Assembly: GCF_030586465.1 (NCBI RefSeq)
Contig: NZ_JAUQYP010000001.1
Location: 909,400-973,399, forward strand
Direction: 5' to 3'
Length of the DNA: 64,000 bases
From: Actinotalea lenta
GTDB taxonomy: Bacteria > Actinomycetota > Actinomycetes > Actinomycetales > Cellulomonadaceae
The position numbers and the translations under genes are program-made. How positions within the stretch are numbered: position 1 is the first letter of the stretch; the number at the start of each line of letters is the position of its first letter. The notes beneath the pieces were generated by a model that had not been told where the DNA came from, searched no databases, and saw only the letters and a list, made by a program, of their open reading frames with translations. Below, one piece after another: positions 7,877 to 58,460 of the stretch.

Positions 7877-7890
7877 GGGACCTTCGTCGC
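7877..7890 (-). promoter_or_regulatory. Candidate DosR/DevR-like operator (GGGACCTTCGTCGC)
   Basis: This 14-mer is identical to the one upstream of the hydrogenase operon. It lies 46 nt upstream of the preferred start of the flavin-reductase operon. Its core, CGAAGGTCCC, recurs at 43724, 45390 and 58451. The left half matches the GGGAC half-site of actinobacterial DosR boxes; the right half is imperfect. Confidence 0.5.
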
Positions 7891-7934
7891 AACTGGGGTG
7901 ACCAGGCGGTTCGAAGCGGTCACCGGGGCTGCGT

Positions 7935-7940
7935 TACGCT
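7935..7940 (+). promoter_or_regulatory. TACGCT -10 box of the SRP RNA promoter
   Basis: TACGCT stands about six nt before the expected 5' end of the SRP RNA. The upstream TCGAAG (7911-7916) is a weak -35 at 18-bp spacing. Predicted from position only. Confidence 0.45.
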
Positions 7941-7944
7941 GGGT

Positions 7945-8038
7945 GCAGACCCCTCGTACGGCGTCATCTCGCTGAACTCCCCCAGGGCCGGAAGGCAGCA
8001 AGGGCAGGTGAGCTCTGGCGGGTGTGCGGGGGGTCCTT
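7945..8038 (+). ncRNA. ffs: Signal recognition particle RNA, small bacterial type (4.5S-like)
   Basis: The universally conserved apical core, with GGAAGGCAGCAAGGGCAG in the hairpin loop region (7990-8007), is present. Flanking strands pair into a long stem: ACCCCTC at the 5' side against GGGGGGT at the 3' side, and CTCCCCCAG against its partner. The length (about 94 nt) fits the short hairpin form of Gram-negatives and actinobacteria. It partners Ffh in co-translational targeting. Ends are approximate. Confidence 0.93.
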
Positions 8039-8047
8039 GCATGTCCC

Positions 8048-8065
8048 GACGGGGCCGGTCCCGTC
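8048..8065 (+). terminator. Possible SRP RNA terminator hairpin
   Basis: GACGGG and CCCGTC form a 6-bp stem around a 6-nt loop, ten bases past the SRP RNA. No T-run follows, which is normal for such GC-rich genomes. Weak. Confidence 0.35.
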
Positions 8066-8173
8066 TCGCTCACCTCGCCGGCCTGAGGGGGCGGCGGCTC
8101 CGGAGAGGGTTGGGCGACTCGAGGCCCGACATGCCGTGGCAGGCCCGTCGGGAGCCTGGAAGCATGGGGGCAC

Positions 8174-9955
8174 ATGTGTGGACTGGTGGGTGAGATCAGG
8201 CTCGACGGCACGCGTGCCGACGTCCTCGCGGTCGACCGGATGGCGGCCACGATGGCCGACCGCGGCCCGGACGACTCGGGTGTCTGGGCGTCCGGGCGGG
8301 TTGCGCTCGGGCATCGGCGCCTGATGATCATCGACCTCTCCGCCGCGAGCGGCCAGCCCCTGGTCGACGCGGCGGCCGGGATCAGCGGCGTGTTCAACGG
8401 CTGCATCTACAACTACGTCGAGCTGCGGCGTGAGCTTGCGGACAAGGGCCACCGGTTCTTCTCGCACGGTGACTCGGAGGTCGTGCTCAAGGCCTACACC
8501 GAGTGGGGCGAGGACTTCGTCGACCACCTCGTGGGGATGTTCGCGGTCGCGATCGTCGAGCGTGACACCGGGCGCGTCGTGCTCGCCCGGGACAGGCTGG
8601 GCATCAAGCCGATGTATGTCGCCGAGGACGCCCACCGGGTGCGGTTCGCCTCCACGCTGCCCGCGTTGCTGGCCGGCGGTGGTGTCGACACCTCGATCGA
8701 CCCGGTGGCGCTGGCGCACTACATGTCGTTCCACGCCGTGGTCCCCGCACCGCGCACGATCCTGCGCGGCGTGCGCAAGCTGCCGCCCGCCACCGTCCGC
8801 GTGTACGAGCCGGACGGCACGCACCGCGACCGGCTGTACTGGGACGCCGCGTTCACCCGCCGCGAGGACCGCGCGGACTGGTCGGAGACGGACTGGCAGG
8901 ACGCGCTCCTGGAGTCGCTGTCCACGGCGGTCCGGCGGCGCATGGTCGCCGACGTGCCGGTGGGCGTGCTGCTGTCCGGCGGCCTGGACTCCTCGCTGGT
9001 CGTCGCGCTGCTGGCCGAGCAGGGCCAGACCGGGCTGTCCACGTTCTCCATCGGGTTCGAGTCCGTCGGCGGCCGCGAGGGGGACGAGTTCCGCTACTCC
9101 GACCTGATCGCGCAACGGTTCGGCACCGACCACCACCGGATCCACATCCCCGCCGCGGACCTGCTGCCGCCGCTCGAGGCCGCCGTCGGCGCGATGTCCG
9201 AGCCGATGGTCAGCCACGACGCGGTGGCCTTCTACCTGCTCTCCGAGCAGGTGGCCCAGCACCTCAAGGTGGTGCAGTCGGGTCAGGGGGCCGACGAGGT
9301 CCTGGGCGGGTACCACTGGTACCCGCCGCTGGCGGCCGTCAGCCGAGACCAGGCGGTGGAGACCTACGCCCGCGCGTTCTTCGACCGCGACGCAGCGGGC
9401 CTCGCGCAGGTGGTCTCGCCCGAGCACCTGCCCGAGGGCGACCCGGCCCGGGAGTTCGTCGCGGCGCACCTGGGCGCTCCTGGGGCAGAGACGGCGGTCG
9501 ACGCGGCGCTGCGGATCGACACCGAGATCATGCTGGTCGACGACCCGGTCAAGCGGGTGGACAACATGACCATGGCGCACGGGCTGGAAGCCCGCGTGCC
9601 GTTCCTCGACCACGACTTCGTCGAGCTCGCCGCGAGCTGCCCGCCCGAGCTCAAGCTCGCCCAGGGTGGCAAGGGTGTGCTCAAGGAGATCGGTCGCCGG
9701 GTGCTGCCGTGGGAGGTCATCGACCGGCCCAAGGGCTACTTCCCGGTGCCCGGCATCACGCACCTGGAGGGCAAGGTGCTGGACCGGGTGCGTGACGCGC
9801 TGTCCGCTCCCGCCGCGCGCGAGCGCGGCCTCTTCCGCCCCGAGTACGTGGACATGCTCCTCGCCGACCCGAACGGGGAGCTGACGCCGCTGCGCGGCAA
9901 CAAGCTCTGGCAGCTCGGCCTGCTCGAGATGTGGCTGCAGACCCAGGGGATCTGA
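8174..9955 (+). CDS. asnO: N-acetylglutaminylglutamine amidotransferase (asparagine-synthase family)
   Basis: This 593-residue glutamine amidotransferase has an N-terminal Ntn domain starting MCGLVG (Cys2 nucleophile) and a C-terminal ATP-pyrophosphatase domain with the SGGLDSS P-loop near residues 268-274. It would convert N-acetylglutaminylglutamine to its terminal amide, NAGGN, using glutamine nitrogen and ATP. I call this role rather than ordinary asparagine synthesis because the next two genes are the dipeptide synthetase and the M42 peptidase that always accompany it in NAGGN clusters. The stop is one base from the next start codon. Confidence 0.88.
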   Translation: MCGLVGEIRLDGTRADVLAVDRMAATMADRGPDDSGVWASGRVALGHRRLMIIDLSAASGQPLVDAAAGISGVFNGCIYNYVELRRELADKGHRFFSHGDSEVVLKAYTEWGEDFVDHLVGMFAVAIVERDTGRVVLARDRLGIKPMYVAEDAHRVRFASTLPALLAGGGVDTSIDPVALAHYMSFHAVVPAPRTILRGVRKLPPATVRVYEPDGTHRDRLYWDAAFTRREDRADWSETDWQDALLESLSTAVRRRMVADVPVGVLLSGGLDSSLVVALLAEQGQTGLSTFSIGFESVGGREGDEFRYSDLIAQRFGTDHHRIHIPAADLLPPLEAAVGAMSEPMVSHDAVAFYLLSEQVAQHLKVVQSGQGADEVLGGYHWYPPLAAVSRDQAVETYARAFFDRDAAGLAQVVSPEHLPEGDPAREFVAAHLGAPGAETAVDAALRIDTEIMLVDDPVKRVDNMTMAHGLEARVPFLDHDFVELAASCPPELKLAQGGKGVLKEIGRRVLPWEVIDRPKGYFPVPGITHLEGKVLDRVRDALSAPAARERGLFRPEYVDMLLADPNGELTPLRGNKLWQLGLLEMWLQTQGI

Positions 9956-9956
9956 G

Positions 9957-11744
9957 ATGAGCACGACCGACGGTGCACCCCCGACGCCCCGCCAGGACAT
10001 CGGCCCGGGTGGCGACCCCGTGATGGCCGCCGGCGAGCCGGATCGTGACGCGCCCGACGAGGGCGTCGTGCTGGACTGCGGGTGGGGCAGGATCGTGTTC
10101 GGCCAGACCTTCGCCCGGCGGACGCACGCGGCCGAGGTGCTGCGCAGCGAGGCTGCCGGAGCTCGCGACATCTGCATGTACCTGCGCGACGCGCACGTGT
10201 TCGTCGCCAAGCACTCCGACGAGTTCTTCGTCGACCCGTCGCTGACCTACCGGCTGGACCTGACCAGCACGGCGCTGGACGCCGAGCCGCCCCCCGGGGT
10301 CACGCTGCACGAGCTGACCCGGCTCGCCGAGGCCGACGCCGTCAACGCCATCTACGCCCGCAACCAGATGGTCACCGCGGCGGCCGACGTGCTGGTGGAC
10401 GTCGCCGAGCGTCCCGAGGTGGTGCACCTGGTGGCCGAGCTGAGCACCGGCGAGATCATCGGCACGGTGACCGGGGTGGACCACGGCGCGCTGTTCGACG
10501 ACCCCGCGAACGGTTCGTCGCTGTGGTGCCTGACGGTCGACCCGTCGATCGCTCCGCCCGGCGTCGGCCAGGCGCTGCTGGCCGCGATCGCCCGGGAGAT
10601 GACCGCGCGGGGCCGGTCCTCGCTCGACCTGTCGGTGCTCGCGGACAACACCGGCGCGATCCGGCTGTACGAGCGGCTCGGGTTCCGCCGGGTCCCGGAC
10701 CTGGTGGTCAAGCGCAAGAACCCCATCAACGAGCGGCTGTTCCGCGCCGCGGTGCCCGACCACTACGAGGAGCTGAACCCGTATGCGCGGCTCGTCGCGG
10801 ACGAGGCGATGCGGCGCGGCATCCGGGTGGAGGTCACCGACGGGCCCTGGGGCGAGCTGCGCCTGACCCACGGTGCGCGCACCGTGCACACCCGGGAGTC
10901 GCTGTCCGAGCTCACCTCGGCGCTGGCGATGGCACGCTGCGACGACAAGCGCGTGACGCGGCGAGTCCTGTCCGACGCCGGGCTGCGGGTGCCGCGCGGC
11001 GCCACGTCGCGCGGTGGGGAGGCAGACCGTGCGCTGCTGGCCGAGCTCGGCCAGGTCGTGGTCAAGCCCGCGAGGGGTGAGCAGGGCCGCGGGATCACCG
11101 TCGGGGTCCGTGACCCCGAAGCGCTCGAACGGGCCGTGTCCGCGGCCCGGGCGCACTGCCCCGACGTGCTCATCGAGGAGATGGTCGCCGGGCAGGACCT
11201 CCGGGTGATCGTGATCGACCACGAGGTCGTGGCGGCCGCGGTGCGGCGGCCCGCGGCAGTGATCGGCGACGGGGTGCACACCGTCGCGGACCTCATCGAG
11301 CGCCAGAGCAGGCGGCGCTCCGCCGCCACGGGTGGCGAGTCCCGCATCCCGGTGGACGCCGGGACGCTGGACACGGTGGCGGCGGCCGGCTGGTCGATGG
11401 ACGACGTGCTGCCCGACGGAGAGGCCCTCACGGTGCGCCGCACGGCCAACCTGCACACCGGTGGCACCATCCACGACGTGACCGCCGGGCTGCACCCGGT
11501 GCTCGCGGAGGCCTGCGTGGCGGCGAGCAGGGCGATCGCGATCCCGGTTACGGGGCTCGACCTGCTGGTGGCGGCGCCCGACCAGCCCGAGTACGTCATC
11601 ATCGAGGCGAACGAGCGGCCGGGCCTGGCCAACCACGAGCCGCAGCCCACCGCTGAACGGTTCATGGACCTGCTGTTCCCCACGACGGCGGCACCGCCCC
11701 GGCTGTGGACCCCGCGCGGGCACGGCGACGGTGCGAGCCGATAG
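9957..11744 (+). CDS. ngg: N-acetylglutaminylglutamine synthetase (GNAT + ATP-grasp fusion)
   Basis: This 595-residue bifunctional enzyme has a GNAT acetyltransferase domain (about 95-240; LWCLTVDPSIAPPGVGQALL, DNTGAIRLYERLGFRRV) joined to an ATP-grasp ligase domain (about 310-590; VVKPARGEQGRGITVG, EEMVAGQDLRVIVID, and NERPGLANHEPQPT at the end). In Sinorhizobium and Pseudomonas the same fusion acetylates glutamine and ligates it to a second glutamine, giving the osmoprotectant precursor. It is in one operon with the amidotransferase upstream and the peptidase downstream. The acidic N-terminal 45 residues are poorly conserved. Confidence 0.9.
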   Translation: MSTTDGAPPTPRQDIGPGGDPVMAAGEPDRDAPDEGVVLDCGWGRIVFGQTFARRTHAAEVLRSEAAGARDICMYLRDAHVFVAKHSDEFFVDPSLTYRLDLTSTALDAEPPPGVTLHELTRLAEADAVNAIYARNQMVTAAADVLVDVAERPEVVHLVAELSTGEIIGTVTGVDHGALFDDPANGSSLWCLTVDPSIAPPGVGQALLAAIAREMTARGRSSLDLSVLADNTGAIRLYERLGFRRVPDLVVKRKNPINERLFRAAVPDHYEELNPYARLVADEAMRRGIRVEVTDGPWGELRLTHGARTVHTRESLSELTSALAMARCDDKRVTRRVLSDAGLRVPRGATSRGGEADRALLAELGQVVVKPARGEQGRGITVGVRDPEALERAVSAARAHCPDVLIEEMVAGQDLRVIVIDHEVVAAAVRRPAAVIGDGVHTVADLIERQSRRRSAATGGESRIPVDAGTLDTVAAAGWSMDDVLPDGEALTVRRTANLHTGGTIHDVTAGLHPVLAEACVAASRAIAIPVTGLDLLVAAPDQPEYVIIEANERPGLANHEPQPTAERFMDLLFPTTAAPPRLWTPRGHGDGASR

Positions 11745-11747
11745 CGT
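11742..11747 (+). promoter_or_regulatory. TAGCGT box seven nt before the M42 peptidase start
   Basis: TAGCGT overlaps the stop codon of ngg and lies seven nt before ATG 11755. It could give a separate leaderless transcript for the peptidase within the operon. Sequence geometry only. Confidence 0.4.
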
Positions 11748-11754
11748 GCCGCGG

Positions 11755-12915
11755 ATGACCCCGGACCTGACGTACCTGCGCCGCGTGCTCGTCGAGCTCC
11801 TGGAGATCCCGAGCCCGACCGGACGCACCGACCACGTGCAGCAGTACGTGGGCGAGCGGTTGGACCGGCTCGGGGTGCCGTTCGTGGTGACCCGCCGCGG
11901 CGCGATCGTCGCGGACCTCGGCGGCCCGGCCGGGGACGGCGCGAGCCGCGCGATCGCGGTGCACACCGACACGATCGGGGCGATGATCCGCCGGCTGAAG
12001 GAGGACGGACGGCTGGAGCTCAAGCCGGTCGGCACGCACAGCTCGCGGTTCTCCGAGGGCGCCGCGGTGTGGGTCTTCCCCGACGACCTCGAGACCGTCT
12101 ACACGGGTCAGGTCCTGCCCCTCAAGGCCTCCGGGCACCGCTGGGACGACGAGGTGGACAGCCAGGGCGTCTCCTGGGACCAGGTCGAGGTGCGGCTGGA
12201 CGAGCACGTCGCGACCGCCGAGGACCTGCGCGCCCTCGGGCTCGACGTCGGCGACTTCGTGGCGCAGCTCGCCAGCCCGGTGATCACGGACCGCGGCTAC
12301 GTACGGTCCCGGCACCTGGACGACAAGGCGGGTGTCGCCGCCACCCTCGCGGCGGTCAAGGCCATCAAGGACTCCGGCGTCGAGCTGCCGGTGCATGCCC
12401 GGCTGCTCGTGACCTGCACCGAGGAGATCGGGCACGGCGCCAGCCACGGGCTCGCCGAGGACGTCGCCGAGATGGTCTCGGTCGACGCGGCGGTGGTCGC
12501 GCCCGGTCAGCAGTCCCGCGAGCGCGCCGTCACGGTGGCGATGGCCGACGGCGTCGGGCCGTTCGACTACCACCTGAGCCGCCGGTTGCACGCGATCGGT
12601 CGGGATGCGGGCCTGGACGTGGTGCGCGACACGTTCGCGCACTACCGGTCCGACGCGGCGTCGGCCCTCGAGGCGGGCGCGCACCTGCGCGTCGCGCTGC
12701 TCGGGTTCGGGGTGGACGCGACTCATGGCCACGAGCGCACCCACCTGGACAGCCTCGCGGGGCTGTCGACGCTGCTGGCGTCGTACCTGGCCAGCGACCT
12801 GGTGTTCCCGCAGTGGGACACCCGGCCGCAGGGACCGCTGTCGGCGTTCCCGTCGCTCGCGGTCCAGCCCGCGCAGGAGGAAGGTCCGCAGGAGGGCCCG
12901 ATCGACGTCGACTAG
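11755..12915 (+). CDS. NAGGN-system M42 family aminopeptidase
   Basis: This 386-residue metallopeptidase has dinuclear-zinc motifs: AIAVHTDTIG (His-x-Asp), HLDDKAG (bridging Asp), CTEEIGHGASHG (catalytic Glu and zinc Glu) and a C-terminal HGHERTHLD. It belongs to the M42 subgroup found only beside the NAGGN synthesis genes. It probably degrades or recycles the acetylated dipeptide, which would set osmolyte levels. ATG 11755 is preferred over GTG 11731 and 11746 because it fits the TAGCGT spacing and the homology start. The C-terminal 30 residues are a Glu/Gln-rich tail. Confidence 0.85.
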   Translation: MTPDLTYLRRVLVELLEIPSPTGRTDHVQQYVGERLDRLGVPFVVTRRGAIVADLGGPAGDGASRAIAVHTDTIGAMIRRLKEDGRLELKPVGTHSSRFSEGAAVWVFPDDLETVYTGQVLPLKASGHRWDDEVDSQGVSWDQVEVRLDEHVATAEDLRALGLDVGDFVAQLASPVITDRGYVRSRHLDDKAGVAATLAAVKAIKDSGVELPVHARLLVTCTEEIGHGASHGLAEDVAEMVSVDAAVVAPGQQSRERAVTVAMADGVGPFDYHLSRRLHAIGRDAGLDVVRDTFAHYRSDAASALEAGAHLRVALLGFGVDATHGHERTHLDSLAGLSTLLASYLASDLVFPQWDTRPQGPLSAFPSLAVQPAQEEGPQEGPIDVD

Positions 12916-12986
12916 GTCCGACCGGGCGTCGCAGCGGCGGGGCCCGGCGCCCTCCCGCCCCGGTTCTCAGCGTCGGCGGCGGCGTC

Positions 12987-12992
12987 TAGGGT
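12987..12992 (+). promoter_or_regulatory. TAGGGT -10 box, leaderless dnaX
   Basis: TAGGGT lies six nt before the GTG start of dnaX. No ribosome-binding site is present. It supports GTG 12999 as the true start. Confidence 0.6.
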
Positions 12993-12998
12993 GGCCGC

Positions 12999-43719: not shown

Positions 43720-43733
43720 GCGCCGAAGGTCCC
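43720..43733 (+). promoter_or_regulatory. Candidate DosR/DevR-like operator upstream of SDR gene
   Basis: GCGCCGAAGGTCCC (reverse GGGACCTTCGGCGC) lies 36 bp before the SDR start. It shares CGAAGGTCCC with the boxes at 7881, 45390 and 58451. A second GC-rich half (TCGGCCC) follows at 43738-43744. Confidence 0.5.
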
Positions 43734-43769
43734 TTCATCGGCCCTGATCGTTCCTCCATCCTGGGGCGC

Positions 43770-44798
43770 ATGCGCATCGCCGTGCTCGGGGCCACCGGAT
43801 TCCTCAGCAGTGCCGTCGTGGATGCCGCGTTGGCGGCAGGTCACGACGTGATCGCCGTGTCGCGCGGCAACCAGGGAGAGCCTCCGCCCGGCACCACGTG
43901 GGTGCGTGCGGACCGCGACGACGTCGCGTCGCTGTCGGGAGCGATGGCGCCGTTCCTGGACACCATCGACTCGGTGATCGACTGCAGCGGGTTCACCGTC
44001 GAGGGAGCGATCGCCGCGGCCGCCGTGTTCAAGAAGGTCCCGCACTACGTGTACGTGTCGAGCATCTCCGCGTACCGCAACTGGCCCCCCGGACCGATCC
44101 AGGGTGAGGACGACGAGCTCGCACACCCGGACGACGACCTGACGCACGCGGGCCCCATGAAGGCGCAGAGCGAGCGCATCCTGCGCGCCGCCGTGGGCAA
44201 GCGACTGCTCGCGGTCCGCGCCGGGATCATCATCGGGCCCGGTGACGACACCCACCGGCTGACCACGTGGCTGCACCGGATCGCGACCGAGCGGTGGGTC
44301 GGCGTGCCGGCGGCGCGGAGCCAGCCGATCGCCGTGATCGACGTGCGCGACCTCGCCTCCTGGATGGTCACCGCCGCCGAGGAGCTCGTCATCGGTCCGC
44401 TCAACGCGACCGGACCGGAGGGCATGTGCACGTTCGGCGAGATGCTCGAGGCGTGCGCCGACGCGGTGCGGTCCACCGGTCGTGAGCCGGCCACGTTCGT
44501 CAACCTGCACGACGCAGAGATGCGCGCAGCCGGCGTCAAGCCCTGGTCGGACCTGCCCTTCGTGCTGCCGGGCGACGTCGCGCACACCGTGTGGCAGGTG
44601 GACACCACGCGGGCTCGTGAGCTCGCGGTACCCGTGCGGCCCATCGCCGACTCGGTCGCGGACACCTGGGCGTGGCAGATCAAGGCGAACCTCCGGCACC
44701 CCCCGGTGCCGCGGGTCGTGCAGGACCTGACCACCCGCAAGGTCGCGGAGAAGCTCGCCAAGGAGGCGGCTGCAGCCGAGGAGACCGCGAACGTCTGA
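43770..44798 (+). CDS. NAD-dependent epimerase/dehydratase-type SDR
   Basis: This 342-residue extended SDR has the nucleotide-binding motif VLGATGFLSSAVV. The catalytic area YVYVSSISAYRNW carries Ser/Tyr; the usual YxxxK is replaced by a divergent segment (GPMKAQSERIL), so catalysis may be atypical. It probably acts on a nucleotide-linked or small carbonyl compound. The upstream DosR-like box suggests redox-linked expression. The end is convergent with trmL. Confidence 0.8.
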   Translation: MRIAVLGATGFLSSAVVDAALAAGHDVIAVSRGNQGEPPPGTTWVRADRDDVASLSGAMAPFLDTIDSVIDCSGFTVEGAIAAAAVFKKVPHYVYVSSISAYRNWPPGPIQGEDDELAHPDDDLTHAGPMKAQSERILRAAVGKRLLAVRAGIIIGPGDDTHRLTTWLHRIATERWVGVPAARSQPIAVIDVRDLASWMVTAAEELVIGPLNATGPEGMCTFGEMLEACADAVRSTGREPATFVNLHDAEMRAAGVKPWSDLPFVLPGDVAHTVWQVDTTRARELAVPVRPIADSVADTWAWQIKANLRHPPVPRVVQDLTTRKVAEKLAKEAAAAEETANV

Positions 44799-45385: not shown

Positions 45386-45399
45386 GCGACGAAGGTCCC
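45386..45399 (+). promoter_or_regulatory. Candidate DosR/DevR-like operator upstream of hydBGDA
   Basis: GCGACGAAGGTCCC is identical, as a 14-mer, to the site upstream of the flavin-reductase operon (7877-7890). It lies 59 bp before the hydB start in the only gap ahead of the hydrogenase operon. Confidence 0.55.
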
Positions 45400-45458
45400 T
45401 GGAAACGTGCCGGTCAGCAGGAGAAACGTGAGGAGCACTATCGGCGAGGAGGCGTCCA

Positions 45459-46592
45459 ATGACGGACGGACCACGGATCATCGGCCGGGACCAGCTGGCC
45501 CGGCTCGTCGAGGTGCTGACCGCCCGGGGCTATGCGGTGGTGGCGCCTACGGTGCGCGCGGGGGCGGTGGTGCTCGACGAGGTGGTCGGTGCGGACGATC
45601 TGCCGTGGGGCGTCGGTGACGTCCAGGATGCGGGAACCTACCGGCTGCGCGAGCGGGACGACGAGGCCGTGTTCGGCCAGGCCGCGGCGGTCCGCGCGGT
45701 CAAGCCGGTCCTGTTCCCCGCCGACGAGCTCATCTGGCGCGGTCATCGCAGCGGCACCGACTTCGCCGTGACCGACCGCGAGGGCTCGCCTCAGCGGCCG
45801 GTGGCCTTCCTGGGGGTGCGCGACTGCGACCTGCGGGCCCTGGCGCGCCACGACGAGGTCCTGGCGGGGCGTGCCTTCGCCGACACCCGCTACCAGCGCC
45901 GCCGCGCGGGGACGTTCCTGGCGGCGGTGACGTGCGCCGAGCCGGGTGGCACGTGCTTCTGCACCTCGATGGGCGGCGGTCCGCACCCGGAGAACGGCTA
46001 CGACCTGGCGCTGACGGAGCTGCTCGACCCGCACCGCTTCGTGGTCGAGGTAGGTTCGGACACCGGCGCGGACGTGCTCGCGGAGCTGGACTCGGAGCCG
46101 GCCGGAGCCCAGGACCTGGCAGCGGTGCACGACGTCGTCGCGCACGCCACCGAGTCGATGGGTCGGTCCATGGACACCGAGGGCCTGCGCGACCTGCTCT
46201 ACGCCTCGGCGGAGAGCCCGGTCTGGGACGAGGTCGGCAATCGCTGCCTGACCTGCATGAACTGCACCATGGTGTGCCCGACCTGCTTCTGCACCACCGT
46301 CGAGGACGTCTCCGCACTCGGGAGCGCCGATGCCGAGCGCCGCCGGGTCTGGGACTCGTGCTTCTCCGAGGAGTTCGCCCACATCCACGGTGGCAGCCTG
46401 CGCACCGAGGTCAGGTCCCGGTACCGCCAGTGGATCACGCACAAGCTCGCCGCCTGGCAGGACCAGTTCGGATCGCTCGGCTGTGTGGGCTGCGGTCGGT
46501 GCATCACCTGGTGCCCGGTGGGCATCGACATCACGGCGGAGGCCGCCAAGCTCCGCGCCGCCGCGCCGCTCACCGTGGGAGGTGCCCGATGA
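45459..46592 (+). CDS. hydB: [NiFe] hydrogenase group 3b, beta subunit (4Fe-4S)
   Basis: This 377-residue electron-transfer subunit is of the HydB/sulfhydrogenase type. The C-terminal half has two clusters of cysteines: C263LTCMNCTMVCPTCFC and C342VGCGRCITWCPVG, each a 4Fe-4S ligand set, with further Cys (GGTCFCTSMGG) midway. It relays electrons between the HydG flavin and the NiFe site. GGAGG precedes ATG. Each gene overlaps the next by ATGA-type junctions (hydB-hydG-hydD-hydA), the same order as Pyrococcus hydBGDA. Confidence 0.93.
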   Translation: MTDGPRIIGRDQLARLVEVLTARGYAVVAPTVRAGAVVLDEVVGADDLPWGVGDVQDAGTYRLRERDDEAVFGQAAAVRAVKPVLFPADELIWRGHRSGTDFAVTDREGSPQRPVAFLGVRDCDLRALARHDEVLAGRAFADTRYQRRRAGTFLAAVTCAEPGGTCFCTSMGGGPHPENGYDLALTELLDPHRFVVEVGSDTGADVLAELDSEPAGAQDLAAVHDVVAHATESMGRSMDTEGLRDLLYASAESPVWDEVGNRCLTCMNCTMVCPTCFCTTVEDVSALGSADAERRRVWDSCFSEEFAHIHGGSLRTEVRSRYRQWITHKLAAWQDQFGSLGCVGCGRCITWCPVGIDITAEAAKLRAAAPLTVGGAR

Positions 46593-47440
46593 CCGCAACG
46601 CTGGACCGCCCCGTCGCCCCCGACGCGATGGCGCCCGCGCGCTACCGGATCGGACGCACCCGCCAGGACACGCGGGACACCTTCACCATCGAGCTCGAGC
46701 CGGTGGACGGCCCCATGCTGCGCTACCGCGCCGGTCAGTTCACCATGCTGGACGCGTTCGGTGTCGGCGAGGTCCCGATCTCGATCTCCGGCGACCCGAC
46801 CCGCCCCGGCCCGCTCGAGCACACCATCCGTGACGTCGGAGCTGTCACCCACGCCTTGATCGCCGCACCGCGCGGTGCCGTGCTCGGCGTCCGCGGCCCG
46901 TTCGGGACGTCCTGGGACGTCGCGGACGGCATGGGCGGCGACGTCGTCCTGGTGGCCGGCGGCATCGGGCTCGCGCCGCTGCGACCGGCCCTGCTCGAGA
47001 TCGTCCGGCACCGGGACCGGTACAACCGCGTGGTCCTGCTGTACGGCGCTCGCACCCCCGAGGACATCCTGTTCGGCGACGAGCTGCGCAGCTGGGCCCA
47101 CGACCACGGCATCGTCGTCGAGGTCACCGTGGACAACGGGCAGCACGCCTGGCGCGGCAAGGTCGGCCTGGTCACGAACCTGGTCCCGCGGGCCGGGTTC
47201 GACCCGCACTCCACCCTCGCACTGGTCTGCGGCCCGGAGGTGATGATGCGCTCGGCCGCGCAGGCGCTCGTGGCGCGCGGTGTGCCCGGCGACCGCGTCC
47301 GGCTGTCGCTCGAACGCAGCATGAAGTGCGGCGTGGGGCTGTGCGGCCACTGCCAGCTGCGTGACCTGTTCGTGTGCGTCGACGGCCCGGTGCTCGGGTA
47401 CGACCGGTTGGCGCCGCTGCTGAGCGTGAGGGAGCTGTGA
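46589..47440 (+). CDS. hydG: [NiFe] hydrogenase group 3b, gamma subunit (FAD/NAD(P)H)
   Basis: This 283-residue FNR-fold diaphorase has YRAGQFTML (FAD side), [17 protein letters not shown] (NAD(P) site), and a C-terminal 2Fe-2S-type motif ([22 protein letters not shown]). It couples hydrogen turnover to NAD(P)H. The ATG overlaps the hydB stop. Cofactor preference cannot be read with certainty, but the family is usually NADP(H)-dependent. Confidence 0.94.
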
Positions 47441-48267
47441 TGTTCGACGAGTCCCTGAAGTCCTCCGCCCGGCCCAAGCTCGCCGTGTGGAAGTTCGCGT
47501 CCTGCGACGGCTGCCAGCTCAGCCTGCTCAACTGCGAGGAGGAGCTGCTCACGGTCGCGGGCGCGGTGTCCATCGCGTACTTCCCGGAGGCCACCCGCGG
47601 CGTGGTCGAGGGCCCGTACGACGTGTCCCTGGTCGAGGGTTCGGTGACCACGCCGGAGGAGATCGAGCGGATCGCCCAGATCCGGGAGATGTCCCGGGTC
47701 GTGGTGACGCTCGGCGCGTGCGCTACGAGCGGCGGGATCCAGGCGCTGCGCAACTTCGCCGACGTCGCCGAGTTCCGCTCGGTGGTCTACGCGCACCCGG
47801 AGTACCTGTCCACGCTGGCCCGCTCCACGCCGATCTCCGCGCACATCAGCGTCGACCTCGAGCTGCGCGGCTGCCCGATCGACAAGGGGCAGCTGCTCGA
47901 GGTCCTCGGGGCCCTCGTCGAGCACCGCCGCCCGCGGATCCCGTCGTACTCGGTGTGTGCCGAGTGCAAGCGCCGCGGCACGGTGTGCGTCGCGGTCGCG
48001 CACGGGACCCCGTGCCTCGGGCCGGTCACCCAGGCCGGCTGCGGCGCGCTCTGCCCCGCCTACGAGCGCGGCTGCTACGGCTGCTTCGGGCCGCAGAACA
48101 CCCCGAACACGGCCTCGCTGTCCGACCACCTGGTGGCCACGGGCATGAGCCCGGAGATGGCGATGCGGGTGTACCGCACGTTCAACGCGGCCTCGGAGCC
48201 GTTCCGGCGGGAGAGCGAGCGCCAGGAGAGGGCGGTCGTCGCGTCCGGGAAGGGGAACGCACGATGA
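47440..48267 (+). CDS. hydD: [NiFe] hydrogenase group 3b, delta (small) subunit
   Basis: This 275-residue protein of the NADH:ubiquinone oxidoreductase 20 kDa fold has a proximal-cluster motif ([19 protein letters not shown]), then [11 protein letters not shown] and RGCPID. The C-terminal part carries [29 protein letters not shown] and CYGCFGPQ, ligands for further 4Fe-4S clusters. It overlaps the hydG stop by one base. It bridges the NiFe site to the flavin/Fe-S modules. Confidence 0.94.
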
Positions 48268-49589
48268 CCCAGGTCAGCGACCGGCCGAGCGCCGGCACCC
48301 CGCACCCCACCCAGACCCTGCAGGTGGGCATGCTCGCCAGGGTCGAGGGCGAGGGCGGCCTGCACGTGGAGATCCACGACGGCCGCGTCACCGACGTGCA
48401 GCTGCGGATCTTCGAGCCGCCACGGTTCTACGAGGCGTTCCTGCGGGGCCGCGCCTACACCGAGCCGCCGGACATCACGGCGCGGATCTGCGGGATCTGC
48501 CCGGTGGCGTACCAGTTCAGCTCCTGCCTGGCGATGGAGGACGCCTGCGGCGTCACGGTGCCCGACCACATCCGCACGATGCGGCGGCTGCTGTACTGCG
48601 GCGAGTGGATCGAGAGCCACGCGTTGCACATGTTCCTGCTGCACGCGCCGGACTTCCTCGGCTACCCGGGTGCGGTCGAGATGGCCGCGGACCACCCGGA
48701 TGTCGTCGCGACGGGGCTGCGCCTGAAGAAGGCCGGCAACGACCTGATGGACCTGGTGGGCGGCCGGTCCGTGCACCCGATCAACGTGCGGCTCGGCGGC
48801 TTCTACCACCTGCCGACGGTCGCCGAGCTCCGCGCGATCCGCCCCCGCCTGGCCGCGGCCCTCGACGACGCCGTCGCTACGGTCCGGCTGGTCTCGACGT
48901 TCGACTTCCCGGAGATGGAGCAGCGCTACCCGTACCTCGCGCTCCGACCGGACGTCGGCTACCCGCTCGAGGGTGGGCACGTGGTCACGAGCGAGGGCGA
49001 CTCCTGGCCGGTGCAGGAGTTCCGCGAGCACATCGCGGAGTTCCACGTCGAGCACTCCACGGCGCTGCACTCCACCCTCGACGGTCAGCCGTACGTGGTG
49101 GGGCCGCTCGCAAGGTACTCGCTCAACCACGACCGGCTGTCCCCGCTCGCCCGCGAGCTGGCGCACGAGGCCGGCCTGGGCGTGACGTGCCGCAACCCGT
49201 TCCGCTCGATCGTGGTGCGTGGCGTCGAGCTCGTGGAGGCGCTGGTCGAGGCGCTGCGCATCATCGACGAGTGGGTCGACGGCCGGCCGGCGTCGGTGCC
49301 CGTGCCGGCCCGCGCGGGGGAGGGCTTCGGGGCGACCGAGGCGCCGCGTGGCGTGCTGTTCCACCGGTACGTCATCGACGACGCCGGGACGATCAAGGAC
49401 GCGCAGATCGTGCCGCCGACCGCGCAGAACCAGCCGAGCATCGAAGGCGACCTGCGCGAGCTCGCCGAGCGGTGGGTCGCCCTTGGTGACCACGACCTCG
49501 GCCACCGCGCCGAGCTCGCGATCCGCAACTACGACCCGTGCATCTCGTGCTCGGTGCACGCCGTCGAGGTGACCGTCCACCGCACCTGA
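48264..49589 (+). CDS. hydA: [NiFe] hydrogenase group 3b, alpha (large, catalytic) subunit
   Basis: This 441-residue catalytic subunit reversibly interconverts H2 and protons. The Ni/Fe ligands are all present: L1 RICGIC (Cys76, Cys79) and L2 DPCISCSVH (Cys426, Cys429). A nine-residue tail (AVEVTVHRT) follows His432, the usual cut site of maturation endopeptidase, so the precursor form is encoded. No hyp maturation or endopeptidase genes are in this window; they must lie elsewhere. In actinobacteria such enzymes support fermentation-like redox balance at low oxygen. Confidence 0.95.
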
Positions 49590-51446: not shown

Positions 51447-51480
51447 CGGCACCGGCCCCCGGTCGGCGGGGCCGGTGCCG
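51447..51480. terminator. Bidirectional terminator between aldo/keto reductase and epimerase
   Basis: 13-bp perfect arms (CGGCACCGGCCCC at 51447-51459; 51468-51480) with an 8-nt loop between two converging genes. Confidence 0.85.
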
Positions 51481-51498
51481 CGGCCCGCACCGAGCGGC

Positions 51499-52350: not shown

Positions 52351-52419
52351 ACACCCATCGTGCCCGTCCGTGGCGTACGACGCGCAGCGGGGAGGTCGGC
52401 GCCCTAGGCTCGCTCGGAG

Positions 52420-53916
52420 ATGACCGAGCACCGCGCCCCCGGGCGCCCCGACGAGCGCAAGGGTGACGACCCCACCGCCGACCCTCGCGCGGGTGCGCGC
52501 GACCCGAGCCCCGAGCCCGGGCAGGACCCGCGGCGCTGGAAGGCGCTCAGTGTCGCGCTCACGGCGGGGTTCATGACCCTGCTCGACGTGAGCATCGTCA
52601 ACGTGGCCCTGCCCTCGATCCGTTCCGCCCTGGACGCCTCCGCGGCGCAGCTGCAGTGGGTCGTCTCCGGGTACGCGCTCACGTTCGGCCTGGTGCTGGT
52701 GGCCTCGGGCCGGCTCGGCGACGCCAGGGGGCGGCGCGCCATGTTCGGCGTGGGCATCGGGGTGTTCACGGTGGCGAGCGTGGTCGCCGGGCTGGCCCCG
52801 GCCGCAGGCTGGCTGGTGGCGGCGCGCCTCGTGCAGGGCGTCGGTGGGGGGATCCTCAACCCGCAGATCTCGGGCCTGGTCCAGCAGCTGTTCCGGGGAG
52901 CCGAGCGCGGACGGGCGTTCGGCAGGCTCGGGACCACGATCGGGATCTCCACGGCGGTCGGCCCGGTGCTGGGCGGTGTGATCCTCAGCGTGGCGGGCAC
53001 GCAGGAGGGCTGGCGCTGGGTCTTCCTGGTGAACCTTCCGGTCGGCCTGCTGACGTTCCTGCTCGCCCGGCACTTCATCGACCCTGTCGAAGAGCCCGAG
53101 CCGGCGCGTGACCTGGACCCGGTCGGTGCGGTGCTGCTGGGCGCGGGCGTCGTCGGGCTGCTGTGGCCGTTGGTGTCCGACAGCTGGCAGGGGGTGGACG
53201 CCGTCCTCCTGACCGCCGGCGTCCTCGCGATCGCGGGGTTCTGGTGGTGGGAGCGCAGGATGGCCCGGCGGGGCCGTGCGCCGATGGTTCGGCTGTCGCT
53301 GTTCAGCCAGCCCGGCTACGCCGCGGGAGCCCTGCTGGGTCTGGTGTACTTCTCCGGCTTCACCGGGATCTTCTTCGTGCTGACGCTGTTCTTCCAGAAC
53401 GGCCTGGGCTACACCCCGCTGCAGGCAGGGCTAGGTCTGACGCCGTTCGCCGTCGGGTCGGCGGCGACGGCGACGATCGGCGGTCGCCTGGTGGGGCGGC
53501 ACGGCCGGCGTGTGGTGGTCGGGGGGCTCATCCTGGTGAGCGCCGGGCTCGTGCTCACCGAGCTGGCCATCCGGGCGCGGCACGGCACGTCGACCGGGTG
53601 GTGGTTGGCCGCACCTCTCCTGCTGGCAGGGCTCGGCAGCGGGTTCGTGATCTCGCCCAACGTCACCCTCACCCTCGAGAACGTGCCCGTGGGCCAGGCG
53701 GGGACCGCGGGTGGGGTCCTGCAGACCGGGCAGCGCCTGGGGACCGCGGCCGGGATCGCCCTGGTGGGTGCGCTGTACTTCCGCGGGCTGGCGGCCACCG
53801 GCGACGCGGCGCTCGCCGCGTCGCACGGCCTGCGCGCAGCGCTGGCCTCCTCAGCGGTCGCTCTGGTGATCGGGATCGTGGACCTGGCTCGGCGGGCGCG
53901 GCGCGGGTCGGTCTGA
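52420..53916 (+). CDS. MFS drug exporter (DHA2/EmrB-QacA family)
   Basis: This 498-residue permease has about 14 membrane helices. The N-terminal charged stretch (about 40 residues) leads to LTAGFMTLLDVSIVNVALPSI, characteristic of DHA2. Motif A (GRLGDARGRR) and the drug/H+ motif C-like SGYALTFGLVLVASG are present. It exports hydrophobic compounds. Followed by a terminator that separates it from glpK. Confidence 0.9.
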   Translation: MTEHRAPGRPDERKGDDPTADPRAGARDPSPEPGQDPRRWKALSVALTAGFMTLLDVSIVNVALPSIRSALDASAAQLQWVVSGYALTFGLVLVASGRLGDARGRRAMFGVGIGVFTVASVVAGLAPAAGWLVAARLVQGVGGGILNPQISGLVQQLFRGAERGRAFGRLGTTIGISTAVGPVLGGVILSVAGTQEGWRWVFLVNLPVGLLTFLLARHFIDPVEEPEPARDLDPVGAVLLGAGVVGLLWPLVSDSWQGVDAVLLTAGVLAIAGFWWWERRMARRGRAPMVRLSLFSQPGYAAGALLGLVYFSGFTGIFFVLTLFFQNGLGYTPLQAGLGLTPFAVGSAATATIGGRLVGRHGRRVVVGGLILVSAGLVLTELAIRARHGTSTGWWLAAPLLLAGLGSGFVISPNVTLTLENVPVGQAGTAGGVLQTGQRLGTAAGIALVGALYFRGLAATGDAALAASHGLRAALASSAVALVIGIVDLARRARRGSV

Positions 53917-53950
53917 GACCGTCGCGCGCCGCGGCCGCGAGCACCGCATG

Positions 53951-53982
53951 GCGACGGCCGCCCCCGAAGGGACGGCCGTCGC
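53951..53982. terminator. Bidirectional terminator between MFS gene and glpK
   Basis: GCGACGGCCG (53951-53960) pairs with 53973-53982 around a 12-nt loop, between converging genes. Confidence 0.75.
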
Positions 53983-54069
53983 GTGGGGCTCGGCCCACCG
54001 ATCCCGGTCCGCGAGCGGGCCGGCGCGCCGAGCCCTCCTGGGCCGGGCAGGCGGAGCCCGCCTGGGACG

Positions 54070-55587
54070 TCACTCGGTGTCGGCGTCCACCCAGTCGAAG
54101 GTCTTGGTGACGGCCTTCTTCCAGTTCCGGTACGTCTTCTCCCGTGCCTCGACGTCCATGTCGGGCGTCCAGCGCTTGTCCTCGGCCCAGTTGTCGATGA
54201 CGTCCTGCTCGCCCGACCAGAACCCGACGGCGATGCCGGCCGCGTAGGCCGCGCCGAGAGCGGTGGTCTCGGCGACCTTCGGTCGCACCACGTCCACGCC
54301 GAGGATGTCCGCCTGGAACTCCATGAGCAGCTCGTTGGCGATCATGCCGCCGTCGACCTTGAGCTCCTTGAGCTCGACGCCGGAGTCGGCGTTCATCGCG
54401 TCCAGCACCTCGCGGGTCTGGAAGGCGGTGGCCTCGAGCGCCGCCCGGGCGATGTGGCCCTTGGTGACGTACCGCGTGAGGCCGGCGATCACGCCGCGCG
54501 CGTCGCCGCGCCAGTACGGCGCGAACAGGCCGGAGAACGCCGGCACGAAGTACGCGCCGCCGTTGTCCTCGACCGTCTTGGCCAGGTCCTCGACCTCGGG
54601 TGCCGAGGAGATCAGGCCCAGGTTGTCGCGCAGCCACTGGATCAGCGAGCCGGTGACCGCGATCGAGCCCTCGAGGGCGTAGATCGGGGCGTTGTCGCCG
54701 ATCTTGTAGCACACCGTGGTGAGCAGGCCGTTCTTGGACGGGACCGGCTCGGTCCCGGTGTTGAGCAGCATGAAGTTGCCGGTGCCGTAGGTGTTCTTGG
54801 CGTCGCCGACCTCGAAGCACGCCTGGCCGAAGGTCGCAGCCTGCTGGTCGCCGAGGATGCCCGCGATCGGCACACCCGGGACCATGCCGCCCTCGCGGCC
54901 GTGGCCGTAGACCTCGGAGGAGGACTTGATCTCGGGCAGCATGGACATCGGGATGCCCATCTCGCCGGCGATCTCCGCGTCCCAGCTCAGCGTCGACAGG
55001 TCCATGAGCATGGTCCGCGAGGCGTTGGTGACGTCGGTGACGTGCACGCCGCCGTCGACCCCGCCGGTCATGTTCCACAGCACCCACGCGTCGGTGTTGC
55101 CGAACGCCAGCTGCCCGGCCTCGGCCTTCTCCCTGGCGCCCTCGACGTTGTCGAGGATCCAGCGGACCTTCGGGCCCGAGAAGTAGGTCGCCAGCGGGAG
55201 GCCGACCCTGGCCTTGTAGCGCTCGGCGCCGCCGCCCAGCGCCGCCAGCTCGTCACAGATCTTCTGCGTGCGGGTGTCCTGCCAGACGATCGCGTTGTAG
55301 ACGGGCTCGCCCGTCGTCTTGTCCCACACGACAGAGGTCTCGCGCTGGTTGGTGATGCCGACCGCCGCGATGTCCCGGTAGGTGAGGTTGGCCCTGGTCA
55401 GCGCCAGGCCGACGACCTCGCGGATGTTGTCCCAGATCTCCATCGGGTTGTGCTCGACCCAACCCGGCTTCGGGAAGATCTGCTCGTGCTCCTTCTGCCC
55501 GGTCGACACGATCGACCCGGAGTGGTCGAACACGATGGCACGCGAGCTCGTGGTGCCCTGGTCGATGGCGAGGATGTAGTCAGCCAT
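54070..55587 (-). CDS. glpK: Glycerol kinase
   Basis: This 505-residue kinase makes sn-glycerol-3-phosphate. It begins [21 protein letters not shown] and has the glycerol site GITNQRET and the signature [16 protein letters not shown]-site [13 protein letters not shown], and [12 protein letters not shown] 55587 has AAGGACGG upstream. It is the last gene of the glp cluster, separated from glpF by a 215-bp gap with a hairpin. Confidence 0.97.
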
Positions 55588-55756
55588 GTCCGTCCTTCGT
55601 CGATTGAACGGTGCGGTGGGGTTCCACCGCGGTGAGGGTGAGGTCACGCTCGGGACGTGGCCCGGGTGACGCACCGCTGGGGCGCGTCGTCGTGCGTGTC
55701 GCAGCACAGGGCGCGGCTCGCACAGGAGTTGCGACGGGGCCGAGGGCCCCGGGGTG

Positions 55757-55781
55757 CGGGGTCGCTACCGGAGCGACCCCG
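55757..55781 (-). terminator. Hairpin in the glpF-glpK gap
   Basis: CGGGGTCGCT (55757-55766) pairs with 55772-55781, 5-nt loop, 22 bp after glpF. It may end transcription or attenuate read-through into glpK. Confidence 0.6.
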
Positions 55782-55802
55782 CGACCACAGGAGTCGGTCG
55801 TG

Positions 55803-56534
55803 CTAGACGACGTACCACTGGGCGACGAGGCCCGCGAGGGCGCCGCCGACGATCGGGCCGAAGACCGGGACCCAGGAGTAGGCCCAGTCGGACGAGCCCT
55901 TGCCCGGGATCGGCAGGATCGCGTGCGCGATGCGCGGGCCGAGGTCACGGTTCGGGTTGATGGCGTACCCGGTGGGACCACCGAGGCTCGCGCCGATGCC
56001 GACCACCAGGAGGGCCACGGCGAGCGGGCCAAGGCCGGTCGGCGTCTTGCCGAACGCGATGATGACGAACACCAGGACGAACGTGCCGATGACCTCAGTG
56101 ATGAAGTTCCAGCCGTAGGACCGGATGGCCGGACCGGTGGAGAAGACGCCCAGCTTGACGGCCGGGTCGGCGTCCTCGTCGAAGTGCTTCTTGTAGGCCA
56201 GCCAGGCCAGGACGGCGCCGAGGAAGGCGCCGAACATCTCGCCGCCCAGGTAGACCATCGTCGAGGCGAAGGAGACCTCGACCCCGGGTGCGTACTCCTT
56301 GGCGCCGTTGGCCAGCAGGCCGATCGTCACGGCGAAGTTCAGGTGGGCACCGCTCTTGTAGGCCGAGTAGACACCGGCGAACACGCCGAGGCCCCATCCG
56401 AAGTTGATGAGGAGCCAACCACCGTCGAACCCCTTGTTCTTCGGAAGGATGACGTTCGCCACGACTCCTGCACCGAGCAGGAGCAGCATCGCCGTGCCCA
56501 CGGTCTCGGAGACGAACACTTCTCCCAGTGACAT
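55803..56534 (-). CDS. glpF: Glycerol facilitator (aquaglyceroporin), atypical NPA boxes
   Basis: This 243-residue MIP-family channel has about six membrane helices. The two half-helix boxes are altered: the first reads HLNFAVTI (NFA) and the second INPNRDLGPR (NPN) instead of NPA. The selectivity Arg after box two is kept. It sits between glpD and glpK on the same strand, so glycerol uptake is the likely role. AGGAAAAG precedes the ATG. Confidence 0.93.
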   Translation of the reverse strand: MSLGEVFVSETVGTAMLLLLGAGVVANVILPKNKGFDGGWLLINFGWGLGVFAGVYSAYKSGAHLNFAVTIGLLANGAKEYAPGVEVSFASTMVYLGGEMFGAFLGAVLAWLAYKKHFDEDADPAVKLGVFSTGPAIRSYGWNFITEVIGTFVLVFVIIAFGKTPTGLGPLAVALLVVGIGASLGGPTGYAINPNRDLGPRIAHAILPIPGKGSSDWAYSWVPVFGPIVGGALAGLVAQWYVV

Positions 56535-56637
56535 CTGCTTTTCCTCGTTTCACTCGCGGACTTCGTTGTCACAAGCACCCGCAGCAGGGGGCCGCGGGCA
56601 GAGGTGGAGCACCCGGGGATCGCCCGGGAGTAGGGGG

Positions 56638-58395
56638 TCAGGTATCGGCCGGCGTACGGCCGAGCGGGACCAGGGGGACGAGGTCGGCCGCCTGCAGGCG
56701 CACCGCTTCCGCCTCGGCGTCGTCCGCCACGAACGAGGCCTGCTCGTCGGCCTCGCACCGCGCCCGGTAGGAGTCGATCTCCGCCTGGCGGCGTCCGGCG
56801 TCCCAGCCGAGGCGCTCGGCGACCAGGTCGGCGATCTCCTCGACGGCCGCCAGGCCGCGGTCCCGCTGCTCGTAGACCAGGCGGGTGCGGTGCAGCATGA
56901 CGTCCTCGAGGTGCAGGACGCCCTCGTGGGTCGCGGCGTAGGCGATCTCGGCGCGCAGGTAGGCCGGAGCGCCCTCCAGGGGCCGACCGAGCGAGGGGTC
57001 GGCATCCACGGAGTCCATGATCTCGGCCAGCAGTGCGCCGTACCGGTGCAGCAGGTGGTCGACCATGGCGGACGTCCACCCGTAGGCGGCGCCGATCTGC
57101 CGTGCCTGGCGCTGCAGCACCGCGTGGCCCTCGGCGCCGGCGAGCGCGATGCGGTCGGTGAGCGACGGCAGGCTCGCGGCCCGCTCGCCGAGCGCGAAGT
57201 CCACGGCGTCCTTGGCCATCACCCGGTAGGTGGTGAGCTTGCCGCCGGCGATGACCGTCAGACCCGGGGTCGGCGAGGCGACGGTGTGCTCGCGGGACAC
57301 CTTGGCCGACGACGTGCCCTCCTTGGTGCCCGGCTGGAGCAACGGGCGCAGACCGGCCCACACCCCGATGACGTCGTCGCGGGTCAGGGGGCGCGCCAGG
57401 ACGGCGTTCGCGTGGTCGATGACGTAGTCGATGTCCGCGGAGGTCGCGACCGGGTGCACCAGCTGCTGCTTCCACTCGGTGTCGGTGGTGCCGATCACCC
57501 AGTAGCGCGACCACGGGATGACGAACAGCACGGACTTCTCGGTCTGCAGGATCAGGCCGACGTCGCCGCGGATCCGGTCGCGCGGCACGACGATGTGGAT
57601 GCCCTTGGAGGCGAGCACGTGCAGGCCGCCGTCGGTGTCGGCCAGCGCCTCGGTCTCTTCGGTCCACACGCCGGTCGCGTTGATGACCTGGTCGGCCTTG
57701 CAGGTGAACCGCTCCCCGGTCTCCAGGTCCTGGAGCACCGCCCCGTCCACCACGCCCGTGCCGCGCTTGGTCAGCTCGACGACCTGGGTGCGGCTGGCCG
57801 CGTGCGCCCCGTAGCTGACGGCGGTCCTGATGAGGGTCTCGACCAGGCGGGCGTCGTCGACGCTCGCGTCGTAGTAGCGCACCGCGCCGACGGCTGCGTC
57901 GTGCCGCAGGTCGGGGAAGAGTCGCTCCATGCCGGCGCGGCTGACGTGCCGGTGCCACGGCATCGCACGCTTGCCCGGCGCGATCGAGGCGAGGGTGTCG
58001 TACAGCGCGACGCCGGCCCCCACGTAGGCGCGCTCCCAGTAGGCGTTCTCGAGCGGGTACAGGAACGACACCGGTCGCACCAGGTGGGGCGCGATCCGCT
58101 TGAGCAGCAGGTCGCGCTCCGTGAGCGCCTCGTGCACCAGGTGGAAGTCGAGCATCTGCAGGTATCGCAGTCCGCCGTGCACCAGCTTGCTGGACCGGCT
58201 GGACGTCCCGCTGGCCCAGTCCTGGGCCTCAACGATCCCGACGCGCAGGCCGCGGGTCACGGCGTCCAGGGCGATGCCGGCGCCGGTGACGCCACCACCG
58301 ATAACCAGGATGTCGAGCTCACGCCCCTGGCCACTGTCGGCCAAGGCCTCGAGCGCATGCTGCCGGGTCTGCGGCGTCAGGGCTGCCGTTCTCAC
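56638..58395 (-). CDS. glpD: Glycerol-3-phosphate dehydrogenase, FAD-dependent (aerobic type)
   Basis: This 585-residue flavoprotein oxidises glycerol-3-phosphate to dihydroxyacetone phosphate. The FAD site is LDILVIGGGVTGAGIALDAV, with SSRSSKLVHGGLRYL, and an FAD C-terminal domain. GTG 58395 follows GAGGAGG. It starts the glp operon and is divergent from the SorC regulator; between them lie a DosR-like box and an inverted repeat. Electrons probably go to quinone. Confidence 0.95.
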   Translation of the reverse strand: MRTAALTPQTRQHALEALADSGQGRELDILVIGGGVTGAGIALDAVTRGLRVGIVEAQDWASGTSSRSSKLVHGGLRYLQMLDFHLVHEALTERDLLLKRIAPHLVRPVSFLYPLENAYWERAYVGAGVALYDTLASIAPGKRAMPWHRHVSRAGMERLFPDLRHDAAVGAVRYYDASVDDARLVETLIRTAVSYGAHAASRTQVVELTKRGTGVVDGAVLQDLETGERFTCKADQVINATGVWTEETEALADTDGGLHVLASKGIHIVVPRDRIRGDVGLILQTEKSVLFVIPWSRYWVIGTTDTEWKQQLVHPVATSADIDYVIDHANAVLARPLTRDDVIGVWAGLRPLLQPGTKEGTSSAKVSREHTVASPTPGLTVIAGGKLTTYRVMAKDAVDFALGERAASLPSLTDRIALAGAEGHAVLQRQARQIGAAYGWTSAMVDHLLHRYGALLAEIMDSVDADPSLGRPLEGAPAYLRAEIAYAATHEGVLHLEDVMLHRTRLVYEQRDRGLAAVEEIADLVAERLGWDAGRRQAEIDSYRARCEADEQASFVADDAEAEAVRLQAADLVPLVPLGRTPADT

Positions 58396-58446
58396 ACTCG
58401 TCCTCCTCGACGTGCTGCCGGGATGCCGCGCCCCGGCCTCAAGCCG

Positions 58447-58460
58447 GGGTCGAAGGTCCC
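58447..58460. promoter_or_regulatory. Candidate DosR/DevR-like operator in the glpD-sorC gap
   Basis: GGGTCGAAGGTCCC (reverse GGGACCTTCGACCC) is the most symmetrical of the four boxes. It lies 52 bp upstream of glpD and ten bp before the TATGCT -10 of the divergent gene, at its -35 position. Confidence 0.5.

Follow-up and report, generated by a model that had tools for sequence, protein, structure and literature searches.

What, if anything, links a ferric-reductase-like gene, a short-chain dehydrogenase/reductase (SDR) gene, a hydrogenase operon and a glpD/SorC gene pair in a 64,000-nucleotide stretch of the Actinotalea lenta genome (contig NZ_JAUQYP010000001.1, positions 909,400 to 973,399; hereafter the window)? 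An initial annotation noted the 10-mer CGAAGGTCCC ahead of all of them and proposed a single DosR-like regulon. Sequence comparisons indicate that a DosR-type low-oxygen regulator most likely docks at a site of which the 10-mer is one arm. We hold with good confidence that it comprises the conserved arm and spacer of an operator whose full form in this family is the palindrome GGGACCWWGGTCCC, serving a kinase-regulator low-oxygen switch. The DosR-like interpretation is thus supported, and the four-gene membership only in part: of the four sites, two withstand scrutiny and two are open to doubt.

The window contains four exact copies of CGAAGGTCCC, at 43724(+), 45390(+), 58451(+) and 7877-7886(-), precisely where they had been reported. 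The expected number is 0.16, and none of 100 dinucleotide shuffles of the window reached four. Called genes take up 91.9% of the window and contain none of the four copies, and no fifth copy occurs anywhere in the 64 kb, so the annotation was right both about the intergenic placement and about the lack of further intergenic copies. The 14-nucleotide boxes around the 10-mer are as follows, two of them identical as originally described.

7877..7890, minus strand: box GCGACGAAGGTCCC upstream of the ferric-reductase-like and ApbE genes, 2 mismatches
43720..43733, plus strand: candidate DosR-type box GCGCCGAAGGTCCC of the SDR gene, with one strong arm, 3 mismatches
45386..45399, plus strand: candidate DosR-type box GCGACGAAGGTCCC of the hydB operon, 2 mismatches to GGGACCWWGGTCCC
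58447..58460, plus strand: box GGGTCGAAGGTCCC between glpD and SorC, 2 mismatches

From box end to start codon the distance is 46 nt for the ferric-reductase-like gene (ATG 7830), 36 nt for the SDR gene and 59 nt for hydB. The divergent pair gives 55 nt to glpD (58395) and 93 nt to SorC (58554), and the claimed range of 36-60 bp therefore fits every gene except SorC.

The genome (3.31 Mb) has 26 copies of CGAAGGTCCC against 5 of the reversed word, and the word outnumbers its reversed control in every one of 19 same-genus genomes. With our own gene caller, 16 of the 26 copies are coding and 10 fall outside gene calls. Most copies are thus coding, but the intergenic share exceeds the non-coding fraction (8.1%, the window figure; binomial P = 2e-5). 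One of the ten, L022, is probably coding (an in-frame lipobox, by eye), and with 9/26 the value becomes 1e-4.

The wider pattern CSWWGGTCCC has 128 matches in the genome versus 68 for its control, and 32 of the 105 sites that could be placed are intergenic (P = 3e-11), although gene calls delimit three of these (L231, L232, L266) poorly and one (L282) touches a gene end. The intergenic share depends on the spelling of CSWWGG, being higher for CCAAGG (7/16), CCTTGG (5/12), CCTAGG (2/2), CGAAGG (10/26) and CGTTGG (4/9) and lower for CCATGG (2/14), CGATGG (2/22) and CGTAGG (0/4). A looser scan with GGGACNNNNGTCCC and two mismatches was uninformative (7470 versus 6788 control matches) and was set aside.

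Across 61 genomes of the family, GGGACCWWGGTCCC occurs 78 times versus 4 for the reversed control, and 41 of the genomes have at least one perfect copy. Of 75 distinct sites examined, 74 lie outside called genes; duplicates L311 and L318 were left out, and 3 of the 78 (two in G035, one in G026) were not fetched. A GGGAC/GTCCC palindrome with a 4-nt centre, one of the features of a DosR/DevR-type regulon, is therefore present in the promoters of the predicted targets. We found no report of GGGACCWWGGTCCC in this family, as spelled, in open PubMed Central text among the matches listed, and three spellings of the palindrome gave 0 occurrences there, again among the matches listed.

Genes of hypoxia type follow the palindrome. 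Pfam matches among the 88 genes that start within 200 bp of GGGACCWWGGTCCC include CydA (16), anaerobic ribonucleotide reductase (NRDD, 6), Usp (4), GAF (4), HisKA_3 (4), Mqo (3), NIR_SIR_ferr (3), response regulator/GerE (2) and MFS_1 (2), and two more cydA genes were recognised by eye. The calling script, trained on the window, called nothing in the lower-GC loci L309, L316 and L317; by eye, the L309 and L317 palindromes precede cydA. At L347 and L357 the palindrome separates a DosR-like gene from a Usp gene; at L359 and L360 the genes on its two sides are a GAF kinase and a Usp gene. A DoxX-like membrane gene, recognised by eye (that at L298 has no Pfam match), often adjoins the perfect palindrome (L298, L304, L311/L344, L319-L321, L323, L347, L352, L359).

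The palindrome also has a preferred position relative to the promoter. Among 88 promoters, TANNNT starts 22 nt after the palindrome in 13 cases, 23 nt in 5 and 24 nt in 5 (23 in total); for each of the 57 remaining offsets in the range 0-59 the count is 3 or fewer. This peak centres the box near -42, the place of a class II activator. By eye, this genome has -10-like hexamers at the same distance after the box at cydA (TACGGT, 24 nt), pflB (TAGCCT, 23 nt) and the narK regulator gene (GAATAT/AATATT, 23-24 nt). We abandoned the notion that the box is itself a -35 element, as the distance from GGTCCC to the -10 is 22-24 nt. Transcripts of the SDR gene and of the narK regulator are predicted to be leaderless.

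Is there a suitable regulator? The initial annotation had suggested looking for a DosR-like LuxR protein, and among twelve GerE places in the genome one, L072 (C1:2770360-2771040), has DevR/DosR (3c3w) as its best PDB match (E 4.5e-52; next VraR, 5.5e-37). All 18 same-genus relatives have a counterpart at 84-96% identity, one of them partial. In a tree of 18 regulators, which contains no named DosR, L072 groups with the relatives' DosR-like proteins and with a second protein of this genome, L074 (fork 98/97). According to excerpts of PMC4082495, DosR contacts bases through Lys179, Lys182 and Asn183. Among nine of the genome's own regulators aligned, only L072 has this K-K-N triad, and the string EKTVKN is present in L072 and 7 aligned orthologues.

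The L072 gene is convergent with a histidine kinase gene encoding two GAF stretches, HisKA_3 and HATPase_c, and the ATPase domain of the kinase resembles that of DevS/DosT. The gene order, over about 8 kb, is perfect palindrome, cydA, cydB, two genes that look by eye like a CydDC transporter, the GAF kinase and the convergent L072 gene. From this neighbourhood we infer that L072 and the kinase are partners. The comparison took in sixteen genomes with a DosR-like match as well as a perfect box among those listed (G035 was left out). The DosR-like gene is 7.5-8.3 kb from its nearest perfect box in 7 of them and 0.7-4.0 kb in 3.

The DosR-like interpretation thus draws on a DevR-like regulator, a promoter-linked palindrome, hypoxia-type genes downstream and predicted sites of the Streptomyces regulator OsdR that carry the same 10-mer (excerpts of PMC5069765). 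Which of the window genes would belong to the regulon was judged from orthologous promoters, beginning with the hydrogenase and SDR loci.

43757..43762, plus strand: -10-like hexamer CATCCT, 23 nt after the SDR box and 7 nt before the ATG
43770..44798, plus strand: NAD-dependent epimerase/SDR gene (Pfam Epimerase, E 1.3e-12)
45424..45429, plus strand: putative weak -10-like hexamer AAACGT, 24 nt after the hydB box, in which only A and the last T fit
45459..49589, plus strand: four-gene group 3b-type hydrogenase operon, as predicted from gene calls
Members of this operon: a Fer4_22 subunit (by Fer4_22 match), an FAD/NAD subunit, gene 47437-48267 and a NiFe large subunit

The hydB box is strongly and best supported among the four window sites. 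It is kept in 5/5 Actinotalea-type promoters (63-100% protein identity), 0-1% of shuffles are as good, and in four named relatives or metagenome-assembled genomes it reads CNWWGGTCCCTGG within otherwise diverged promoter sequence. Of 14 hydB loci, four were scanned and L096 (45% identity) was inspected by eye, with no box seen; the 9 remoter ones lie outside the comparison. Chance alone was rejected as the origin of this box. The sulfhydrogenase alpha and gamma matches of the operon are below the curated cut-off.

The SDR gene is a likely member. Its box lies at -50..-37 of the start in 5/5 close rows, representing about 3 species. The row pairs L086/L141 and L089/L142 probably each stand for a single genome. 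Two rows carry CCTAAGTCCC, and CATCCTGGG...ATG is kept in L140-L142. Only the right arm is good, and 4.5-21% of shuffles are as good. The box is missing at that place in nine homologues of 54-58% identity (L143-L151), several of whose promoters carry another element, GTCCGCC...GGCGGA.

The two outer loci of the window behave differently, and the idea that the four boxes act alike failed on orthologous promoters.

4959-5729: ApbE gene (Pfam ApbE, 1.3e-32)
6337..7830, minus strand: ferric-reductase-like transmembrane gene (Ferric_reduct, 8.4e-18), first of the gene run with ApbE
56638..58395, minus strand: glpD-like FAD glycerol-phosphate oxidase/dehydrogenase (DAO 1.5e-49, DAO_C 2.8e-33)
58554..59510, plus strand: SorC-type regulator with sugar-binding domain (Sugar-bind, 7.6e-54)

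The ferric-reductase box is present in 1/6 orthologous promoters and in none of the 5 outside this genome, a count that leaves out four homologues at 27-29% identity (L136-L139); a weak GAGCCT follows it at 24 nt. The glpD/SorC box is found in 3/15 orthologous promoters, those of the 3 closest relatives. A conserved -10, TATGCT, is 10 nt away, and the box has the activator place in neither direction. The single four-gene regulon that had been proposed therefore stands for hydB and, among close rows, for the SDR gene, but not for these two loci. Regulon membership of the 7877 and 58451 sites is doubtful, and they are perhaps recent gains.

Both loci have other features of their own. Divergent from the ferric-reductase gene is a small SRP RNA gene at 7945-8041(+) (Rfam RF00169, 63.6 bits), so the 7877 box is also upstream of an RNA gene. 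Upstream of SorC (58480-58540; L165-L179), a conserved block surrounds TATGCT and includes CGAACGAACGCGCAACC and GTGCACNNANGTGCA; it is probably the promoter and SorC operator.

Elsewhere in the genome, a perfect palindrome, GGGACCAAGGTCCC, occurs 82 bp before cydA, and pflB has an imperfect palindrome upstream (2 mismatches) and a second one, with 3 mismatches, nearer the gene. Another perfect copy, L325:4145 (G000:C2:276144), is flanked by a WhiB-like gene and a small membrane gene, both named by eye; the small gene has no Pfam match. In 15/18 orthologue rows of the narK regulator, an ArsR/SufR-like helix-turn-helix (HTH) protein, a GGTCCC arm precedes the match start by 35-59 nt (in this set L109 was dropped and L118 added). 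The expectation that sites precede universal-stress, nitrate and hypoxia genes is thus borne out at cydA, the narK locus and pflB, but not at most universal-stress genes, as detailed below. ArsR/SufR-like HTH genes (L250:13489-14220, L116, L121, L122) number up to several per genome, and variants such as CCGAAGTCCTAGATC stand at a similar distance from the start in the promoters of some paralogues.

Several observations weigh against a DosR-type operator read by L072. Perfect palindromes are absent from 20/61 family genomes, and many sites in this genome, including those of narK and the SDR gene, have one strong arm only. A site with ≤2 mismatches is upstream of just 1/7 of the genome's own Usp genes; a hand-weighted score on the own Usp loci gave a palindrome in L064 and no box between genes. 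L072 is a divergent DosR, scoring 180 bits to DevR versus 268 for a relative's canonical DosR. No box is close to its gene, where 11 kb hold a single intergenic 3-mismatch site some 2.5 kb upstream, and 6/16 genomes carry the box on another contig or at a great distance from the DosR-like gene. The genome also has a second DosR-like protein, L074, beside a PAS-GAF kinase. As for the window itself, 3 sites with ≤2 mismatches to GGGACCWWGGTCCC is no rare number (≥3 in 25/200 shuffles); the unusual feature is the intergenic placement of all 3.

These points bear on who owns the box. An owner other than a DosR-type protein, such as the ArsR/SufR-like HTH protein beside narK binding the single arm CCGAAGGTCCC and regulating itself, seems improbable to us. 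The GGTCCC arm kept before the HTH gene would suit it, as would the mostly poor left arm there, which has ≤3 mismatches only in L100, L101, L108, L110 and L113 (in a set where L109 and L112, on short contigs, were cut at the wrong place). However, the perfect palindrome precedes DosR-like, GAF-kinase and Usp genes in relatives, the predicted OsdR site at narG2 has the same sequence in excerpts of PMC5069765, and the activator place of the box would be unusual for an ArsR-type repressor. Slightly less probable still is that L074 is the true owner. Its DevR match is nearly as good (E 2.6e-50) and it belongs to the same clade, but it has Ser at the position of the DNA-contacting DosR Lys179, and its 12-kb neighbourhood contains no intergenic site with ≤3 mismatches. 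We consider it very improbable that a word common in this GC-rich genome has clustered four times in the window by chance, even though most genomic copies are coding, two of the four sites are poorly conserved and three near-palindromes are no rare number in shuffles. The four exact copies were never reproduced by shuffles, copies are enriched in intergenic DNA, and the hydB and SDR boxes keep their sequence or place across species. Chance is an unlikely origin for the hydB box and a possible one for the 7877 and 58451 sites.

Given the observed motif, its enrichment, promoter placement and conservation, and its linkage to a regulator with conserved contact residues, we favour L072 as the owner of the DosR-type operator and propose the following mechanism. 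Low oxygen, or another respiratory signal, would be sensed by the two-GAF histidine kinase encoded downstream of cydAB, which would phosphorylate the convergent DosR-clade response regulator. The phosphorylated regulator would bind the box centred near -42 and, as a class II activator, switch on transcription at the neighbouring -10. Predicted targets in this genome are the cyd genes and the kinase (a positive feedback), the locus of the ArsR-type regulator and narK(-narG), pflB and the hydrogenase operon, with the SDR gene a probable further target. We lean, with somewhat more belief than doubt, towards a wider proposition. Cellulomonadaceae-type actinobacteria would possess a separate DosR clade with its kinase in the cytochrome bd cluster, and GGGACCWWGGTCCC would recruit this DosR as a class II activator for a whole anaerobic programme (bd oxidase, nitrate/nitrite reduction, pyruvate formate-lyase, anaerobic ribonucleotide reductase and group 3b-type hydrogenase), making DosR a respiration/fermentation rather than a dormancy switch. 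Should this be correct, environmental actinobacteria would gain a bench-tractable DosR system whose target set differs from that of the dormancy regulon in mycobacteria, and the box would be precise enough to predict the regulon across a family. The role of group 3b-type hydrogenase in aerobes is debated, and a conserved promoter site would tie this enzyme to a low-oxygen regulator.

How does the proposed system compare with known ones? The mycobacterial DosR consensus is a GGGAC...GTCCC palindrome, a form shared by the sites described here, but with TWWA at its centre where these sites have CWWG. As with Mycobacterium DosR/DevR, the LuxR-type regulator has the same three base-contact residues and the kinase is a GAF histidine kinase. 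Unlike in Mycobacterium, the kinase is encoded downstream of cydAB, the targets include cydA, NRDD and pflB, and the genome's own Usp genes mostly lack a box. Hydrogenases are a further likeness, as the dos-regulated proteins of M. smegmatis include Hhy and Hyh (excerpts of PMC8125079).

The parallel with OsdR/OsdK of Streptomyces coelicolor extends to the sequence itself. In excerpts of PMC5069765, the sites predicted for OsdR (Table 1) include AGGGACCTTCGGCCCC at narG2 and SCO0167 and CGGGACCTTCGGCCCT at SCO5979, all three of which contain GGGACCTTCG, the exact 10-mer. The same excerpts report that OsdR bound the SCO5978-5979 region in gel shifts and place a nitrate reductase among its targets, and the settings at L347, L357, L359 and L360 resemble the DosR setting they describe for Streptomyces and Mycobacterium. 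The systems differ in that the OsdR consensus is AGGGCCGATCGGCCCT and that osdR lies near many Usp genes, whereas the regulator gene here is convergent with the kinase gene after cydAB. The kind of system is therefore already known, and what sets this one apart is its divergent regulator, its cyd-linked kinase and its set of targets.

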